Source: Candidatus Protochlamydia amoebophila UWE25
GTDB taxonomy: Bacteria; Chlamydiota; Chlamydiia; Chlamydiales; Parachlamydiaceae
Length of the DNA: 64,000 nt
Direction: 5' to 3'
Assembly: GCF_000011565.2 (NCBI RefSeq)
Contig: NC_005861.2
Coordinates: forward strand, 310,001-374,000
The position numbers and the translations under genes are program-made. The first letter of the stretch is position 1, and each line of letters starts with the position of its first letter. Positions 19,380 through 64,000 of the stretch are shown here, piece after piece. The notes beneath the pieces were generated by a model, which had not been told where the DNA came from, ran no database searches, and worked only from the letters and a program-made list of their open reading frames with translations.

Positions 19380-19602
19380 AATTGTTAAGATAATTTTAAG
19401 TTAATTCGGAAATGAAGTTAGAAATTTGATGATCATGCCTGTTGTAGAATTATTTCTCAAGTCACTTACACATATCCAAAAACGTTCGAGAATCCAATGA
19501 TTAAGATCCTTTCAAAATCTGATTTTTACTAAATTTTTATCAATTGATATAAAATAATTAAACTGTTTAAACTAATTATTGAATATTAAAAAGGATTTAA
19601 AA

Positions 19603-20727
19603 ATGAAAAAGATTCTTTTAGTAATTAGCTTTTTAGCTGTCTCTTTAATTAAAGCAGAAAATTTATCCATAACCACTGAAGAGAAAGAACTAACTTTATC
19701 TTTACAAGAAATTGATCATTTACAAGCTTGGTGGCCTTGGTCAAGTACACCTAAAGTCGTCAATCCTAAACCTTTATCTCCTTTTAACGTATTAGAACTA
19801 GAAAATAATTTAAGAGAAAAAGTGATTGGGCAGTCGCAAGCTGTTAAAAATACGGCTAATGCATTATTGTGTTATTATGCAGGAATTAATGATCCAAATA
19901 AACCTATTGCTTCGTTTTTGTATGTAGGTCCGACGGGAGTGGGTAAAACAGAGCTTGCTAAAGAGCTTGCACGACAGCTTTTTCAGGATGAAACTAAATT
20001 ACTTCGTTTTGATATGTCAGAATACGAATCTCAGGTAGGAATTAATCGATTAATAGGGGTTCCTAATGGTTATAAAGATTCTGAACACGGAGGGCTTCTT
20101 TCTAATGCAATCTTAGCGAACCCTCATGCTGTTGTTTTACTAGATGAAATTGAAAAAGCTGATCCAAAAGTAAGAGCTCTATTTCTACATATATTTGACG
20201 AAGGTTATTTTACGAGTGGTGTCGGCGAATTGGTTGATTGTCGCAATTGTGTGTTTATTGCTACAACAAACCTTGCCAGCCAAGCCATCTTAAATATTCA
20301 TCCTTTTTCTTATGAGAAAGCCCTTGATACAATTGAGATTTATCTCATTAATGCTTTGACTCCAGAATTTTACAATCGAATTGAACCAGTCATTTTTCAA
20401 GGGTTAGATCGGGAAATGATGAAAGAAATAGCCCAAATTAAGTTAAATCAATTAGCGCAAAATATTTTAAAACAAAAAAAAGTTAAAGTTTATTTTGATG
20501 AATTCGTTGTAGACTATATTCAAACAAAGGGATATCATCCTGCGCTGGGCGCAAGACCTATGCAAAGATTGATTAAAAATGAATTAACACCATTAATAGC
20601 AAAAACAATTTTGCATGCTCAGTATTTACCTGGTGATGTGATGCATATCTCTTATTTAGAGTCAGAATTGATTATCAGTCGGCTCGCAGAATCAGAAGCT
20701 AACGAAATTTTGAGTACTAATCCTTAA
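19603..20727 (+). CDS. Signal-peptide-bearing ClpB/ClpA-type single AAA+ ATPase
   Basis: The 374-residue product has an N-terminal signal peptide-like segment (MKKILLVISFLAVSLIKA, a possible cleavage before Glu19), a short linker, and one HSP100 D2-type AAA+ module. Walker A is GPTGVGKT (109-116), Walker B VVLLDEIEKA (177-186), sensor 1 lies in FIATTNLAS, the arginine finger in TPEFYNRIEP and sensor 2 in GARPMQRLI. The pore loop reads NGYKDSE where ClpB has GYVG. I chose the ATG at 19603, with AAAAGGA seven to nine bases upstream, over an in-frame TTG at 19579. There is no ClpB N-domain, D1 module or coiled-coil M-domain. The layout resembles eukaryotic torsins, but function and location are unknown; the hydrophobic segment could also be an anchor. 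Confidence 0.85.
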   Translation: MKKILLVISFLAVSLIKAENLSITTEEKELTLSLQEIDHLQAWWPWSSTPKVVNPKPLSPFNVLELENNLREKVIGQSQAVKNTANALLCYYAGINDPNKPIASFLYVGPTGVGKTELAKELARQLFQDETKLLRFDMSEYESQVGINRLIGVPNGYKDSEHGGLLSNAILANPHAVVLLDEIEKADPKVRALFLHIFDEGYFTSGVGELVDCRNCVFIATTNLASQAILNIHPFSYEKALDTIEIYLINALTPEFYNRIEPVIFQGLDREMMKEIAQIKLNQLAQNILKQKKVKVYFDEFVVDYIQTKGYHPALGARPMQRLIKNELTPLIAKTILHAQYLPGDVMHISYLESELIISRLAESEANEILSTNP

Positions 20728-21121: not shown

Positions 21122-21856
21122 ATGACAAAAGTTGTTATAACTGATGAACAAAAAAAAATGTTAGAACAATTTCTCGATGAAAATCGCCCAGCTGAATTAA
21201 TCAATACCTATCTGCATTTTATTGAGAGCAAATTCCAACTACAACCCGTACTTTTTCCTAAAGATAAAATTATCTATCAAAGTGCGGAAGATTGTATCAA
21301 AAACCTAGAAAGGGAAGGAAAACTTTGGCATGAAACAGAAATTAAAATTGGTTTTGGTCATGCAAGTGTTAATGAGGAAACTAAAAAAGTTTACATTTGC
21401 CCATTCACGGGAAAAGTATTTGGAGATAACACGCATCCAAACCCTCAAGATGCTATTTACGATTGGGTATCTAAATGTCCAGAAAATACTGAAAGGATTG
21501 GCGGTTTGAGAGTCAAACGTTTCTTTGTTTCAGAAGATCCAGAGGTCATCAAAAGTTATATCGATAAAACTAAATCACGCAGAGATGCCATTAAGAAAGT
21601 TGTTTACTCTTCGGTTTTAAGTGGGAAACTCTTCAATAGTAAAGAAGCTGTGATCGAAGACTTTAAACGAAATTATTTGAAAAAATTGTCTTTAGTCGAA
21701 GTACAAATTCAAAATAAATTTAAAATTGAGGATCACTTTTTGGCCTTTATTCAAAAACATTTAGTAGAAGATAAAATCGCATCATTTGTGGAAGCATTAG
21801 CGGAGTTTGATGAATTTCTGCCATACGTTGAGCGTTGGGTAGAAGCAGAAGATTAA
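21122..21856 (+). CDS. Chlamydial conserved protein (DUF2709-like)
   Basis: The 244-residue soluble protein looks like the chlamydia-restricted family annotated as DUF2709, which in C. trachomatis sits next to the tsaE homologue, as here. Visible features are an acidic helical N-terminus, a central block VYICPFTGKVFGDNTHPNPQDAIYDWVSKCP (quoted only in part as VYICPFTGKVFGDN) with two cysteines, and a helical C-terminus. There is no signal peptide or membrane segment. The function is unknown, and the family name is from memory. The gene leads a run of tsaE, engB and a dnaQ-like gene, 39 bases before tsaE. Confidence 0.75.
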   Translation: MTKVVITDEQKKMLEQFLDENRPAELINTYLHFIESKFQLQPVLFPKDKIIYQSAEDCIKNLEREGKLWHETEIKIGFGHASVNEETKKVYICPFTGKVFGDNTHPNPQDAIYDWVSKCPENTERIGGLRVKRFFVSEDPEVIKSYIDKTKSRRDAIKKVVYSSVLSGKLFNSKEAVIEDFKRNYLKKLSLVEVQIQNKFKIEDHFLAFIQKHLVEDKIASFVEALAEFDEFLPYVERWVEAED

Positions 21857-27043: not shown

Positions 27044-28654
27044 ATGTCACAGACACCAACAGGGTCCCGTGAATTTAGTCCATGGCGGAGCAATCTTTGG
27101 CCCGTTCATCGCTATGAGCTTAAAAAACTCATCCCAATGTTGTTAATATTCTTTTTTATTTCTTTTGATTACAACATATTACGTACTTTAAAAGACTCAC
27201 TACTTATAACTGCAAAATCTTCAGGTGCTGAGGTCATTCCTTTTGTAAAGGTTTGGGCTATGTTCCCTGGAGCTATTTTAATGACCCTTTTGTTCACTTG
27301 GTTGTCTAATCGCCTGTCAAGAGAAATCGTTTTTTACCTTATCACTTCTCTTTTTTTATCTTATTTTTTTATTTTCACTTTTATTCTCTATCCTATTCGA
27401 GATATTATCCATCCTCACGCAACTGCTGACTATCTTGAAACAATTTTACCGATTGGATTTAAAGGGCTAGTTGCGATGTTTCGTTACTGGACTTTTACTA
27501 TTTTCTATGTGATGTCAGAACTTTGGGGAAGTACTGTTTTATTTGTCTTATTTTGGGGTTTTGCTAATCAAGTGACTAAAATTAGTGAGGCAAAAAGATT
27601 TTACGGTCTGTTTGGGGTAGGTGCTAATCTTTCGGGTATTTTCGCAGGACAAGCTTCTGTGTACTGTTGTCAATTTAATAAGCAGAACGATTTGGGAATC
27701 CTTGGTAGTGATCCATGGTATCAATCATTAGTGATGATGGTTTCTTTAATTTTATTATCGGGTGCTTTAGTTTTAGCTTTATTTCGTTGGATGAATGTAG
27801 AAGTCTTAACCGATAAACGTTTTTATGATCCTTCTTCGGTTAAAACAGAAGGAGAAGCTAAAGGTAAGCTTTCTCTAAAGCAAAGCTTTTCCTATCTTCT
27901 TCGCTCTAATTACTTACTTTGTATTGCTCTTATTGTTATTTCTTATAACCTAGTTATTAACCTCACAGAAGTTTTATGGAAACATCAAGTCCGAGAGCTA
28001 TATCCTGATCCTAATGATTATACTTTATATATGAATCATATCGTATCCATTATTGGGGTAGTAGCGACCTTAAGTTCCCTTTTCGTATCAGGAAATGCGA
28101 TTCGCAAATTTGGGTGGACCACTACTGCTTTAATTACACCTATCATTTTAGCTGTAACAAGTTTGGGCTTTTTCTCCTTTTTCTTCCTTAAAAAGGCATC
28201 TCCCGAAATTTTCTTATCTTTTTCCGGAGTAACTCCTTTGGTTTTAGTGGTTTTCTTTGGAACTGCTCAAAACATATTGAGTCGAGGAGCTAAATACTCT
28301 GTATTTGATGCCACTAAAGAAATGAGTTTTGTTCCTTTAAATCCTGAATCCAAACTCGTTGGAAAAGCGGCGATTGATGGAGTTTGTTCTCGCCTCGGAA
28401 AATCGGGTGGATCTGTGGTTCATCAGAGCCTTCTACTTTTGTTTTCTACAATTAATGCAAGTGCCCCTTATGTAGCTATCGTCTTGTTCGCCGTAATTCT
28501 AGTCTGGGCAATGGCAATTCGCGTTTTAGGTAAACAATTTAATGAATTGACAAGTCAGGTAGAAAACAATGAAACTTCTGGGACATTGATGACTCCTATT
28601 CGAGCTGTTAATATTCTTTCAGACACAATTTTGAAAGAACAGAAAGCTGTATAA
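27044..28654 (+). CDS. NTT-family nucleotide transporter (Npt2-like)
   Basis: NTT carriers exchange or import nucleotides across the inner membrane of energy parasites and plastids. The 536-residue product has about 11-12 hydrophobic segments and the family landmarks NYNILRTLKDSLLIT-type first helix, SELWGSTVLFVLFWGFANQ, EAKRFYGLFGVGANL, YNLVINLTEVLWK and SRLGKSGGS. The four charged residues linked to transport in plant NTT1 (Lys in LKDS, Glu in ELWG, Glu in NLTE, Lys in LGKSGG) all have counterparts. SYNLVINL-type wording is shared with its tandem neighbour, which suggests Npt2-like specificity (broader nucleotides or proton-driven import), but the substrate cannot be read from sequence. Confidence 0.93.
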   Translation: MSQTPTGSREFSPWRSNLWPVHRYELKKLIPMLLIFFFISFDYNILRTLKDSLLITAKSSGAEVIPFVKVWAMFPGAILMTLLFTWLSNRLSREIVFYLITSLFLSYFFIFTFILYPIRDIIHPHATADYLETILPIGFKGLVAMFRYWTFTIFYVMSELWGSTVLFVLFWGFANQVTKISEAKRFYGLFGVGANLSGIFAGQASVYCCQFNKQNDLGILGSDPWYQSLVMMVSLILLSGALVLALFRWMNVEVLTDKRFYDPSSVKTEGEAKGKLSLKQSFSYLLRSNYLLCIALIVISYNLVINLTEVLWKHQVRELYPDPNDYTLYMNHIVSIIGVVATLSSLFVSGNAIRKFGWTTTALITPIILAVTSLGFFSFFFLKKASPEIFLSFSGVTPLVLVVFFGTAQNILSRGAKYSVFDATKEMSFVPLNPESKLVGKAAIDGVCSRLGKSGGSVVHQSLLLLFSTINASAPYVAIVLFAVILVWAMAIRVLGKQFNELTSQVENNETSGTLMTPIRAVNILSDTILKEQKAV

Positions 28655-28700: not shown

Positions 28701-28778
28701 TTATTTTTTTATTAATTAAATAAATAGTTGAGAATTAATAAAAAATATAATATACTATTTTATAACAAAAGGTTTAAA

Positions 28779-30329
28779 ATGTCTCAACAAGAATCAGAGT
28801 TTGGTAAATTGAGGGCATTTTTTTGGCCTATTCACGGCCATGAAGTCAAAAAAGTGCTGCCGATGATGTTGATGCTATTTTTGATTTGTTTCAACTATAG
28901 TATTTTACGCAATGTTAAAGATGCTATTGTTGTGACTGCTAAGGCTTCAGGGGCTGAAGTTATTCCATTTATTAAAGTATGGGTGCTGTTACCCACGGCA
29001 GTCTTATTTACTTTAATTTTTACTAAGTTGTCTAACCGTTTTAGCCAAGAAAAAGTTTTTTATATTGTCATTTCTACATTTTTGCTATTTTTTGGTTCGT
29101 TTACTTATATTTTTTATCCTTTACGTGACGTACTACATCCTCATCAACTATGCGATTACTTAGAAACGATTTTACCAGCGGGATTTAAAGGATTAATTGC
29201 CATGTTCCGTAATTGGTCATTTACTTTGTTTTATGTAATTTGTGAACTTTGGGGCAGTATTGTTTTAACTGTCCTTTTTTGGGGATTTGCGAATGAAATC
29301 ACAAAAATGACTGAAGCTCGTCGTTTTTATAGTATGCTTGGTGTCATTGCAAGTTTTGCCGCGACGATAGCAGGAATCATAGCCAATCTTCTTTCTAATG
29401 ATCAAAGTTGGGAACAGACTTTAAATATTCTCATGGTTGCTGTAATTGTAAGTGGAACGATAGCCATGGTTATTTTTCGTTGGATGAATAAAAATGTACT
29501 CAATGGCCCAGAATTCCAAGAATTCCATGAAGCAAAACGCATTCAAAAAATGAAAAAAAGATTATCGATCCGAGAAAGTTTTACCTATCTCGCTAATTCT
29601 AAATATCTTATTTGTATTGCAGTTTTAGTTATTTCTTATAATCTTGTCATTAACTTAGTTGAAATTGTATGGAAAGACCAGCTTCGCCAACTTTATTCGT
29701 CAGCCCTTGATTATAATCGCTATATGAATAACATGACATCAGCAGTCGGAATTATTGCCACAATCACATCCTTATTTATGTCTACAATGATTACTCGGTT
29801 TGGATGGACACGGACAGCTCTAGTAACACCGACTATTATGCTTGTCACAAGTGTGGGATTTTTTGCTTTTATGCTATTTCGAAATGATTTGGCTGATCCT
29901 GTTTATATATTAACAGGAACGACACCTTTAACTATAGCCGTCTTTTTTGGTGCAGCTCAAGTCTGCATGAGTAAAGCCTGTAAGTATTCTGTTTTTGATT
30001 CTACAAAAGAAATGGCTTTTATCCCTCTGGATTATGAAAGTAAATTGAAAGGAAAAGCTGCGATTGATGGTGTGGGTTCTCGTCTTGGTAAATCGGGCGG
30101 TTCCTTAATTCATCAAAGTTTATTGATGATTTTTGCAACTGTTAGCTCCAGCGCTCCTTATGTAGCTGTGATCTTAATTGGCGTTATCATTGTTTGGATG
30201 CTCTGCGTACGTTCATTAGGTAAGCAATTTGCTGCTATTATTGGGGAAAAGGCTCGAGAAGATATTGGTGAATCTACTCCAAGAACGAGTGAAGAGCAAG
30301 TTTTACATCCCTTAAAAGCTGCATCTTAA
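28779..30329 (+). CDS. NTT-family nucleotide transporter (tandem paralogue)
   Basis: The 516-residue product is a paralogue of the preceding gene: ILRNVKDAIVVTAKASGAEVIPFIKVW, CELWGSIVLTVLFWGFANE, EARRFYSMLG, NLVINLVEIVWK and SRLGKSGGS are all present, with 11-12 predicted membrane segments. I chose the ATG at 28779 because it aligns with the other NTT starts (MSQ...FGKLRAFFWPIHG) and AAAAGG lies upstream; a longer in-frame start at 28728 would add an unrelated basic leader. The charged transport residues are conserved. Exact substrate is unknown; Protochlamydia NTT paralogues are known to have different nucleotide preferences. Confidence 0.92.
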   Translation: MSQQESEFGKLRAFFWPIHGHEVKKVLPMMLMLFLICFNYSILRNVKDAIVVTAKASGAEVIPFIKVWVLLPTAVLFTLIFTKLSNRFSQEKVFYIVISTFLLFFGSFTYIFYPLRDVLHPHQLCDYLETILPAGFKGLIAMFRNWSFTLFYVICELWGSIVLTVLFWGFANEITKMTEARRFYSMLGVIASFAATIAGIIANLLSNDQSWEQTLNILMVAVIVSGTIAMVIFRWMNKNVLNGPEFQEFHEAKRIQKMKKRLSIRESFTYLANSKYLICIAVLVISYNLVINLVEIVWKDQLRQLYSSALDYNRYMNNMTSAVGIIATITSLFMSTMITRFGWTRTALVTPTIMLVTSVGFFAFMLFRNDLADPVYILTGTTPLTIAVFFGAAQVCMSKACKYSVFDSTKEMAFIPLDYESKLKGKAAIDGVGSRLGKSGGSLIHQSLLMIFATVSSSAPYVAVILIGVIIVWMLCVRSLGKQFAAIIGEKAREDIGESTPRTSEEQVLHPLKAAS

Positions 30330-41720: not shown

Positions 41721-43262
41721 ATGTCGCAAGATGCGAAACAAGACTTTGGTAAGTGGAGGGCATTCTTTTGGCCTGTACACGGTTATGAACTTAAAAAACT
41801 TCTTCCAATGTTTTTTATGTTCTTTTTTATTTCTTTCAATTACACAATTTTAAGAGATACAAAAGACACTTTAATCGTGACCTCTGCAGGTGCGGAAGCC
41901 ATTCCATTTTTGAAGTCTTTTGGTGTTGTCCCTGCAGCTATCCTTTTTATGATCATTTATGCCAAGCTTAGCAATACGCTAAGCAGAGAAAATTTATTTT
42001 ACGTTACGCTTTTACCTTTTATCATTTTCTTCGGCTTATTTGCTTTTGTCATGTATCCAGCTAGAGAAGTTTTAATGCCTCATGCTTCTGCTGAAGCTTT
42101 AAAAGCTTATTTACCTGGCGGTTGGACCGGGCTTGCGGCGGCATATGAAAACTGGATGTATTCGATTTTTTACATTTTAGCTGAACTTTGGGGAAGCGTT
42201 GTATTATCTCTTCTTTTTTGGGGATTTGCTAACCAAATTACCCGTGTAAATGAAGCTAAACGTTTTTATAGCCTTTTCGGTTTGGGTGCTAATTTGGCAC
42301 TTTTAGTTTCAGGTCCTGCTATTGTATATGTATCAGATATTCGCAAGCATTTACCTGCAAATGTTGATGCATGGCAAATTTCTTTAAATTATTTAATGGG
42401 TATGGTCGTCATTGCCGGATTAGCAATTTTAGCTATCTATTGGTGGATTAATCGTGCAGTTTTAACAGATCCACGTTTTTATGATTTAAATCAAGAAAAA
42501 GCTCCTGGTAAAAAGAAAAAAGCTAAAATGTCTCTTGGAGAAAGCTTCAAATTCCTCTTTACCTCTAAGTATATCCTTTGTTTGGCGATATTGGTTATTG
42601 CTTACGGTATTTCTATTAACTTAGTAGAAATTACATGGAAGAGCCAGGTGAAACTTCAATATCCTAATCCAAATGATTACAGCACGTTCATGGGATGGTT
42701 CTCAACAATGACGGGTGCCGTCACAATTTTGATGATGTTATTCGTTGGTGGTAACGTAATTCGTCATAAAGGTTGGGGATTTGCAGCTTTAATTACTCCA
42801 GTTGTTTTATTAGTCACCGGGATTGCTTTTTTCTCATTCGTGATTTTTAAAGATCACCTAGCTGGATATATTGCTGCCTTAGGAACTACTCCACTATTCT
42901 TAGCTGTCATCTTTGGTGCGGCTCAAAATATTATGAGCAAATCTGCTAAATACTCTTTATTTGATCCAACAAAAGAAATGGCTTATATTCCTTTAGATGA
43001 TGAATCTAAAGTAAAAGGTAAAGCCGCAGTTGACGTAGTAGGAGCTCGTTTAGGAAAATCTGGCGGATCTATTATTCAAATGGGATTACTTGCATTTGGA
43101 ACGTTAGCAACTATTACACCTTATATTGGCGCGATTTTGATGGTTATTATTGCTGCCTGGATTGTGGCTGCCCGTTCATTAAGCAAACAATTTACTCAAT
43201 TGACTGCTGAGCAGAATATTGAGAAAAATATTGATAAAACATCGGAAATAGCTACTAGCTAA
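41721..43262 (+). CDS. NTT-family ATP/ADP translocase (Npt1-like)
   Basis: ATP/ADP translocases let energy parasites take host ATP in exchange for ADP. The 513-residue product is closest in wording to chlamydial Npt1 and rickettsial Tlc1: NYTILRDTKDTLIVTSAGAEAIPF (in part), AELWGSVVLSLLFWGFANQ, EAKRFYSLFGLGANLAL, AYGISINLVEITWK and ARLGKSGGSI. The charged residues expected for transport are all present (Lys48 in DTKDT, and the Glu, Glu and Lys of the later motifs). It differs from the two tandem NTTs upstream, which read SYNLVINL instead of AYGISINL. ATP/ADP exchange is an inference from family resemblance. Confidence 0.92.
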   Translation: MSQDAKQDFGKWRAFFWPVHGYELKKLLPMFFMFFFISFNYTILRDTKDTLIVTSAGAEAIPFLKSFGVVPAAILFMIIYAKLSNTLSRENLFYVTLLPFIIFFGLFAFVMYPAREVLMPHASAEALKAYLPGGWTGLAAAYENWMYSIFYILAELWGSVVLSLLFWGFANQITRVNEAKRFYSLFGLGANLALLVSGPAIVYVSDIRKHLPANVDAWQISLNYLMGMVVIAGLAILAIYWWINRAVLTDPRFYDLNQEKAPGKKKKAKMSLGESFKFLFTSKYILCLAILVIAYGISINLVEITWKSQVKLQYPNPNDYSTFMGWFSTMTGAVTILMMLFVGGNVIRHKGWGFAALITPVVLLVTGIAFFSFVIFKDHLAGYIAALGTTPLFLAVIFGAAQNIMSKSAKYSLFDPTKEMAYIPLDDESKVKGKAAVDVVGARLGKSGGSIIQMGLLAFGTLATITPYIGAILMVIIAAWIVAARSLSKQFTQLTAEQNIEKNIDKTSEIATS

Positions 43263-62490: not shown

Positions 62491-64000
62491 TTATAACCTT
62501 TTATTGATTATTACCTGACCATTAAGCCGGAACCAACCAACAGCCGTATTAGAAGCAAGAGTTTGAGCAAAAGCTTTCATTCTCTTATCGCTGATTTGGT
62601 TTCCGTTAAGAGAGAGATCCATAAGAATCGTATTGGAAACAAGAGTTTGAGCAAAAGCTTTCATTCCCTGATCGCTGATTTGATTTCCGTTAAGAGAGAG
62701 TACCCTAATAGACGTATTGGAAGCCATAGTCTGGGCAAAAGCTTCCATCCCTTTATCGCTAATTTGGTTATTATCAAGTCTAAGTGCCCTAAGAGTTGTA
62801 TTGGAAGCAAGAGTTTGAGCAAAAGCTTCCATTCCCTGATCGCTGATTTGATTATTATCAAGTCTAAGTGCCCTAAGAGTTATATTGGAAGCCAGAGCCT
62901 GAGCAAAAGCTTCCATTCCCTGATCACTGATTTGGTTTCCGTTAAGAGAGAGTTCACTAAGAATCGTATTGGAAGCCAGAGCCTGAGCAAAAGCTTCCAT
63001 TCCCTTATCGCTGATTTGGTTATTATCAAGTCTAAGTGCCCTAAGAGCTGTATTGGAAGCCAGAGCCTGAGCAAAAGCTTCCATTCCCTGATCACTGATT
63101 TGGTTTTCGTTAAGAGAGAGTTCACTAAGAATCGTATTGGAAGCCAGAGCCTGAGCAAGAGCTACTATTCCCTTATCACTGATTTGGTTTCCGTTAAGAG
63201 AGAGTACCCCAATAGACGTATTGGAAGCCAGAGCCTGAGCAAAAGCTTCCATTCCCTTATCGCTGATTTGGTTATTATCAAGTCTAAGGGTCCTAAGAGT
63301 TGTATTGGAAGCCAGAGCCTGAGCAAAAGCTTCCATTCCCTTATCACTGATTTGGTTTCCGTTAAGAGAGAGTACCCCAATAGACGTATTGGAAGCCAGA
63401 GCTTGAGCAAAAGCTTCCATTTCCTTATCGCTGATTTGGTTTTCGTTAAGAGAGAGTACCCTAATAGACGTATTGGAAGCCAGAGCCTGAGCAAAAGCTT
63501 TCATTCCCTGATCACTGATTTGGTTTCCGTTAAGAGAGAGATCCATAAGAATCGTATTGGAAGCAAGAGCTTGAGCAAAAGCTTCCATTCCCTGATCACT
63601 GATTTGGTTTCCGTTAAGAGAGAGTTTCCAAAGAGCCGCATTGGAAGCAAGAGACTGAGCAATTGCTTCGGCTCCTTTATCGCTGATTTGGTTTCCGTTA
63701 AGCCAGAGTGTCTCAAGAGCCGCATTGGAAGCAAGAGCTTGAGCAATTGCTTCGGCTCCTTTATCGCTGATTTGGTTTCTGTCAAGATCGAGTGACTTAA
63801 GAGTCGTATTGGAAGCAAGAGAATGAGCAAGTACTTCTGCTCCTCTATCACTTATTTTCTGATTAGAGAGGTTAACAGAGGCGAACTTAGGATCATTCAT
63901 ATAAAGTTGGAGTAATATCCCGGAGTCAATTTCTAGATTTTTTATTTCTTTTAAGACTCTACGCACTCCTTCTTCTTTGGCTTTTTTTAAATCTAAGGCT
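62491..64000 (-). CDS. Leucine-rich repeat protein, 5' end beyond the window
   Basis: The frame stays open to the window edge: a GTG at 63966 gives 491 residues, but the codons upstream (63999-63967, ALDLKKAKEEG) are also open, so the true start may lie outside. After a short helical lead (about 1-27) come 16 near-identical 28-residue repeats of the ribonuclease-inhibitor type, LxLNGNQISDxGMEAFAQALASNTxL. Variation is concentrated in the beta-strand positions that would line the concave face. There is no cysteine-rich cap. LRR proteins of this type are abundant in amoeba-associated chlamydiae and often proposed as host-interaction factors, but no effector signal can be seen here. The gene lies next to a decayed transposase. 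Confidence 0.9.
   Translation of the reverse strand, partial: ALDLKKAKEEGVRRVLKEIKNLEIDSGILLQLYMNDPKFASVNLSNQKISDRGAEVLAHSLASNTTLKSLDLDRNQISDKGAEAIAQALASNAALETLWLNGNQISDKGAEAIAQSLASNAALWKLSLNGNQISDQGMEAFAQALASNTILMDLSLNGNQISDQGMKAFAQALASNTSIRVLSLNENQISDKEMEAFAQALASNTSIGVLSLNGNQISDKGMEAFAQALASNTTLRTLRLDNNQISDKGMEAFAQALASNTSIGVLSLNGNQISDKGIVALAQALASNTILSELSLNENQISDQGMEAFAQALASNTALRALRLDNNQISDKGMEAFAQALASNTILSELSLNGNQISDQGMEAFAQALASNITLRALRLDNNQISDQGMEAFAQTLASNTTLRALRLDNNQISDKGMEAFAQTMASNTSIRVLSLNGNQISDQGMKAFAQTLVSNTILMDLSLNGNQISDKRMKAFAQTLASNTAVGWFRLNGQVIINKRL
62527..63885 (-). repeat. Sixteen tandem 84-bp LRR-coding repeats
   Basis: The DNA is built of 84-bp units that stay in frame, each coding for 28 residues. 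Two-unit blocks recur: the pair TILSELSLN...+...LRALRLDNN occurs at repeats 10-11 and again at 12-13, and TSIGVLSLNG recurs around repeat 7 and 9. This suggests duplication of two-repeat (168-bp) blocks. The last repeat is divergent (NTAVGWFRLNG). Confidence 0.9.

Follow-up and report, generated by a model that had tools for sequence, protein, structure and literature searches.

SKD3 (human CLPB) is a targeted single-D2 HSP100 protein of the mitochondrial intermembrane space, in which the tyrosine equivalent to the pore-loop tyrosine considered below is critical for activity and the ankyrin domain is needed in cis (PMC7343390). The isolated NBD2 modules of ClpB, Hsp104 and SKD3 show no activity, probably because they do not form hexamers (PMC7343390). 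The HSP101 of Plasmodium acts in the vacuole and thus outside the parasite itself (PMC8016102). Torsins are devoid of the arginine finger and of the pore loops, and their sensor II is Gly-Cys-Lys (PMC4999309; PMC5425593). In Protochlamydia amoebophila, host ATP is imported by nucleotide transport proteins (PMC5451489), and nucleotides must therefore reach the periplasm.

We analysed a window, i.e. the whole stretch of 64,000 nucleotides from position 310,001 to 374,000 of contig NC_005861.2, in the genome of Candidatus Protochlamydia amoebophila UWE25 (2.44 Mb, single contig). A sequence-only reading of this window had described a signal-peptide-bearing ATPase with one ClpB-type module, laid out like a eukaryotic torsin.

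Domain organisation of the window protein

The ORF is where that reading had placed it and in the same frame, from the ATG at 19603 to a stop codon that ends at 20727 (374 codons). The antisense frame of this ORF contains many stops, and a promoter and terminator scan performed no better than chance. The protein starts with MKKILLVISFLAVSLIKA followed by EN, continues with a linker that contains LQAWWPW and ends with one complete HSP100 D2 module (Table 1).

Table 1 Features of the ATPase gene and its surroundings, in positions of the window. The slash marks the predicted cut.
Feature	Position	Strand	Basis
Whole gene: single-D2 HSP100-type AAA+ protein, predicted to be exported, 374 aa	19603..20727	+	ORF and domain matches; export predicted
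Shine-Dalgarno-like AAAAGG/AAGGA	19588..19593 (approximate)	+	5' of the ATG, read from sequence
Predicted Sec signal peptide, residues 1-18, predicted cut after Ala18 (SLIKA/EN)	19603..19656	+	Rule-based
Linker, residues 19-59 (~40 residues), LQAWWPW at residues 42-48	19657..19779	+	Common to three short forms; model confidence low
D2 large AAA+ subdomain, residues ~60-267	19780..20403	+	Pfam, motifs, model
ClpB_D2-small C-terminal subdomain, residues 268-348, sensor 2 Gly316-Ala-Arg318	20404..20646	+	Pfam, motifs
Nucleotide transporter (TLC, PF03219)	27044..28654	+	Context, outside the gene
Nucleotide transporter (TLC)	28728..30329	+	Context, outside the gene
Nucleotide transporter (TLC)	41721..43262	+	Context, outside the gene

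Pfam AAA_2 (E 1.4e-43, 149 bits, residues 100-261) and then ClpB_D2-small (E 2.1e-18, residues 268-348) match far over their cut-offs, and the same pair is found in the relatives described below. All motifs expected of an HSP100/Clp D2 module are present: Walker A (GPTGVGKT, 109-116), Walker B (VVLLDE, 177-182), sensor 1 (ATTN, 220-223), the arginine finger (Arg259, in YNR), sensor 2 (GAR) and the pore loop (GYKD, 156-159) with its tyrosine, Tyr157. The NCBIfam ClpB model was matched over D2 only (profile positions 556-851 of 853), the N domain, D1 and M domain of ClpB proper being absent. The AlphaFold2 model is good over the D2 module and unreliable over residues 1-59. As the sequence-only reading had suggested, it was compared with ClpB D2, and it overlays the NBD2 of Thermus thermophilus ClpB, which is also the nearest solved sequence, with a Z score of 34.1 and an rmsd of 1.9 over 301 residues; against the SKD3 fold the Z score is 30.7. 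Judged by its sequence, the window protein is a member of the HSP100 D2 type, closest to ClpB D2.

Across the nine members of the lineage described below, Walker A, Walker B, sensor 1, the arginine finger and sensor 2 are all kept, Walker A being GSTGVGKT in G190. The pore tyrosine is kept in eight of the nine and is Leu in G083. The pore loop, which the sequence-only reading had called altered, is indeed GYKD in the window protein and GYKE in the sister species, while those of the other relatives read GYVD, GYVG, GYIN, GYHN, GYVN, GYID and, once, GLIG. Since the gripping tyrosine is retained in 8/9, the alteration is a local change to GYKD or GYKE around a kept residue.

A predicted export signal

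In a rule-based test, the N-terminus exhibits the n, h and c regions and the signal peptidase I site of a Sec-exported protein: MKK, a hydrophobic core (top 11-residue Kyte-Doolittle mean of 2.89) and SLIKA/EN. By the same type of test it resembles the N-termini of other exported proteins in the window. No second segment of transmembrane grade is present, the best 19-residue mean past residue 19 being 1.17. After codon 1, the frame has no ATG, GTG or TTG before codon 74. The signal could thus be avoided only at the expense of part of the motor, and a start 3' of the hydrophobic segment was rejected. An export signal ahead of one complete D2 module, as first proposed from the sequence, is thus confirmed by the rule-based signal test, Pfam and the motifs.

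The rule-based test gave an N-terminal hydrophobic core and an acceptable signal peptidase I site in 9/9 lineage members, whose signal sequences are unlike one another; for G190 and two short forms this depends on GTG or TTG starts. Export of the window protein is well supported by these sequence data; where it acts, whether it forms a ring, where its ATP comes from and what it unfolds we infer.

Distribution and phylogeny of the lineage

A single-D2 protein of this type, predicted to be exported, is carried by nine of the 232 chlamydial genomes searched. The eight relatives of the window protein, two short and six long, share the same plan, and no carrier was found in the family coded f4 (small genomes). 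The three short forms (G000, G099 and G059) all have WWPW. The six long forms (G134, G083, G080, G073, G058 and G190) measure about 490-530 aa, with about 160-200 additional residues separating the signal from the motor. The relatives keep a hydrophobic signal and D1 and N domains are absent from all nine members; both are points on which the sequence-only reading had staked its claim.

The additional residues of the long forms contain an extra domain of ~70-90 residues, sometimes repeated, with the motif DGSxWxIgxW...W..GDxIxI. Seen in L244, in L246-L253 and in the N-terminal parts of P0004-P0008, this domain was not matched by Pfam in those proteins that were scanned. It also stands alone in other chlamydial proteins that are mostly signal-bearing, with clear signal peptides, by eye, in about 7 of 10 such ORFs sampled, and this lends independent support to the export of the long forms.

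In a tree of D2 modules, in which three rows are long branches and finer placements are unsure, the nine proteins form one clade (support 94/83, not starred) that joins L007 at 100/100, and together with L007 they are separate from chlamydial ClpB and ClpC and from Firmicute Clp proteins. Constraining the short forms with chlamydial ClpB was rejected (p-AU 0.0002). On the basis of the tree and this AU test we reject an origin by recent truncation of the ClpB encoded in the same genome. L007 (244-2418, G042:C44), which the tree places nearest to the lineage, is a 725-aa HSP100 with an intact D2, a degenerate D1-like region and no signal peptide.

Several single-D2 lookalikes (L014, L031, L123/L137, L138, L139, L140, L141 and L142) were left out as contig-end or interrupted ClpB genes; on inspection they lack a signal and contain sequence of the D1 or M domain of ClpB. 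Near clpB in G218 there is a second HSP100-like ORF, divergent and with a D2 module (L022; start 2440, minus strand).

A plasmid search returned ClpB-type or unannotated matches, all below 60% identity. We also considered 160 ORFs with a D2 module at loci of non-chlamydial genomes and viruses, a sample chosen for similarity rather than a census, and none of them encodes a complete protein that combines a signal with a single D2. Within this limited sample the family appears confined to chlamydiae; the question of chlamydia-only homologues, raised by the sequence-only reading, is thereby answered for the searches made. Literature searches found no paper that names this family, and the lineage of environmental chlamydiae is best described as an exported single-D2 variant of HSP100 that appears to be new.

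Gene neighbourhood and nucleotide transporters

The host genome also encodes full-length ClpB- and ClpC-type proteins (C1:904381 and C1:1826164), hence the window protein is not a broken ClpB. The ATPase gene is solitary, flanked by argS on the opposite strand and by a 244-aa ORF at 21122, which we take to be DUF2709-like. The sister genome G099, presumably that of P. naegleriophila, has an orthologue of 65% identity that is likewise placed between argS and the DUF2709-like ORF, apart from a few inserted genes. In G100 (L151) and G101 (L152), two further genomes of the genus, the argS-DUF2709 junction contains neither the ATPase gene nor a remnant of it. As the gene is rare and missing from these two genomes, it is dispensable. 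A leucine-dehydrogenase-like gene is seen at this junction in G100 and G101, and also in G099.

The gene neighbourhoods of the nine carriers are unrelated to one another, and no conserved operon partner and no linked pore or adaptor gene was found in them. Elsewhere in the window, a long leucine-rich-repeat protein (62491-63966, minus strand) has near-identical repeats of ~28 residues, which also leave long ORFs free of stops on the opposite strand and in the other frames.

Two of the three TLC genes of the window form a tandem pair, and all three are at most 25 kb from the ATPase gene; a fourth is present elsewhere in the genome. The energy-parasite setting invoked by the sequence-only reading is borne out by nucleotide transporters in 9/9 carrier genomes. 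Such transporters are probably near-universal in chlamydiae, so they permit the ATP argument but are not specific to it.

Proposed mechanism and alternatives

We lean, with moderate confidence, towards an exported single-ring HSP100 unfoldase of the ClpB D2 type in environmental chlamydiae, which would work in the periplasm or beyond on host ATP. Sec would export the protein and signal peptidase I would cleave it after Ala18, leaving a mature protein of ~40 kDa that acts in the periplasm or gets passed on towards the inclusion. The subunits would assemble into a single ring, in which the N-terminal extension, i.e. the WWPW linker or the extra domain of the long forms, may replace D1 or the ankyrin domain of SKD3 and contribute to assembly, substrate choice or membrane contact. 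Host ATP entering the periplasm en route to the nucleotide transporters would power the motor, which would unfold, by threading, those envelope and secreted proteins that are misfolded or in transit. By analogy with the isolated NBD2 modules, assembly is the weak point of this proposal: beside their D2, the short forms offer no more than the WWPW linker, unless they rely on a partner. In the long forms, the extra domain is a candidate substitute for an assembly domain.

The signal could also remain uncleaved as an anchor, which we consider unlikely, with the N-terminal helix in the inner membrane and D2 on the periplasmic face acting on membrane or envelope proteins. The hydrophobic core and positive N-terminus predict such an N-in, C-out topology, Ile and Ala at -3 and -1 are acceptable to signal peptidase although better sites exist, the membrane could be touched by the aromatic WWPW segment, and torsinA offers a parallel in being tethered in the ER by a hydrophobic segment. 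However, the uncharged core of 13 residues is short, more like that of a cleaved signal, and most relatives have clear A-x-A-like cleavage sites. The sequence gives no hint of a second export step, and this, together with the missing pore or adaptor gene, argues against activity beyond the outer membrane, in the inclusion lumen or membrane or in the host cytosol, where ATP is plentiful and where the motor would remodel or translocate effectors like HSP101. We regard such a location as improbable, even though HSP101 shows that an HSP100 motor can work outside the cell of an intracellular parasite, Plasmodium (PMC8016102), and the ATP supply of the periplasm is itself presumed. No more probable is a cytoplasmic HSP100 variant, in which the hydrophobic N-terminus would serve in assembly or membrane association rather than as a working signal, with the motor facing the cytoplasm; it would agree with the cytosolic location of canonical HSP100 proteins and with the assembly help required by isolated D2 rings, but all nine N-termini, different as they are, are compatible with a signal peptide, and the long forms have an extra domain that is found elsewhere mostly in signal-bearing proteins. 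A decaying, functionless ClpB fragment, as the loss of D1, M and N domains and the patchy presence might suggest, is highly improbable, being largely refuted by a tree and AU test that point to an old separate lineage and by the motifs intact in nine divergent proteins, and the orthologue kept at the same locus also speaks against it.

The exported unfoldase may be put more boldly, and tentatively, as plausible to nearly the same degree as its opposite: environmental chlamydiae would possess an old and dedicated lineage of HSP100 motors outside the cytoplasm, run on host ATP crossing the periplasm. In the bacterial periplasm, folding and quality control are regarded as ATP-independent, since ATP is lacking there. 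If the proposal is true, energy parasitism would have allowed an unfoldase to run on ATP in a bacterial compartment that is thought to be free of it. To our knowledge, an exported HSP100 would be the first sign of such bacteria spending periplasmic ATP on protein work, and with this one protein it can be tested directly whether the chlamydial periplasm or inclusion contains usable ATP.

Comparison with known systems

With torsins, the window protein shares the layout of a signal sequence (by the rule-based test) and one Clp/HSP100-like AAA+ module, and it would share with them a place outside the cytosol; to this extent the torsin likeness first noticed stands. Kinship beyond the shared Clp/HSP100 likeness does not: unlike torsins, the protein has the Arg259 finger, the Tyr157 pore loop and a Gly-Ala-Arg sensor 2, and Pfam Torsin reaches 21 bits, below its cut-off of 27 bits, compared to 149 bits for AAA_2. 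Torsin membership was rejected on the arginine finger, the pore aromatic residue, sensor II and this score; no torsin chain was among the matches listed in the PDB profile and fold searches, an absence that carries no weight. From these motifs, the window protein should be a threading unfoldase, unlike torsins as currently thought. Nor are torsins the sole known case of a signal with a single module, as had been claimed, SKD3/CLPB being another (PMC7343390).

ClpB D2/NBD2 is alike in giving the best NCBIfam and PDB sequence matches, in its fold (Z 34) and in the catalytic motifs and pore tyrosine that are kept, whereas the window protein has no N domain, D1 or M domain, carries an export signal and belongs to a lineage apart from the genome's own ClpB. 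SKD3 similarly presents a single D2 behind a targeting sequence, with arginine finger and pore tyrosine (PMC7343390). The window protein is less similar in sequence to SKD3 than to ClpB, and SKD3 has ankyrin repeats required for its activity, whereas the chlamydial proteins have the WWPW linker or an unrelated extra domain, Pfam scans of the window protein and its relatives giving no ankyrin repeats. The HSP101 of the Plasmodium PTEX is likewise an HSP100 motor, and the activity outside the cell that would bring the chlamydial protein close to it is a proposal; HSP101 sits on a pore and comprises two AAA+ modules plus an M domain, whereas the chlamydial protein has no known partner. By analogy, SKD3 and Plasmodium HSP101 may be taken as functional parallels of the window protein, and the exported chlamydial HSP100 would be their bacterial counterpart.
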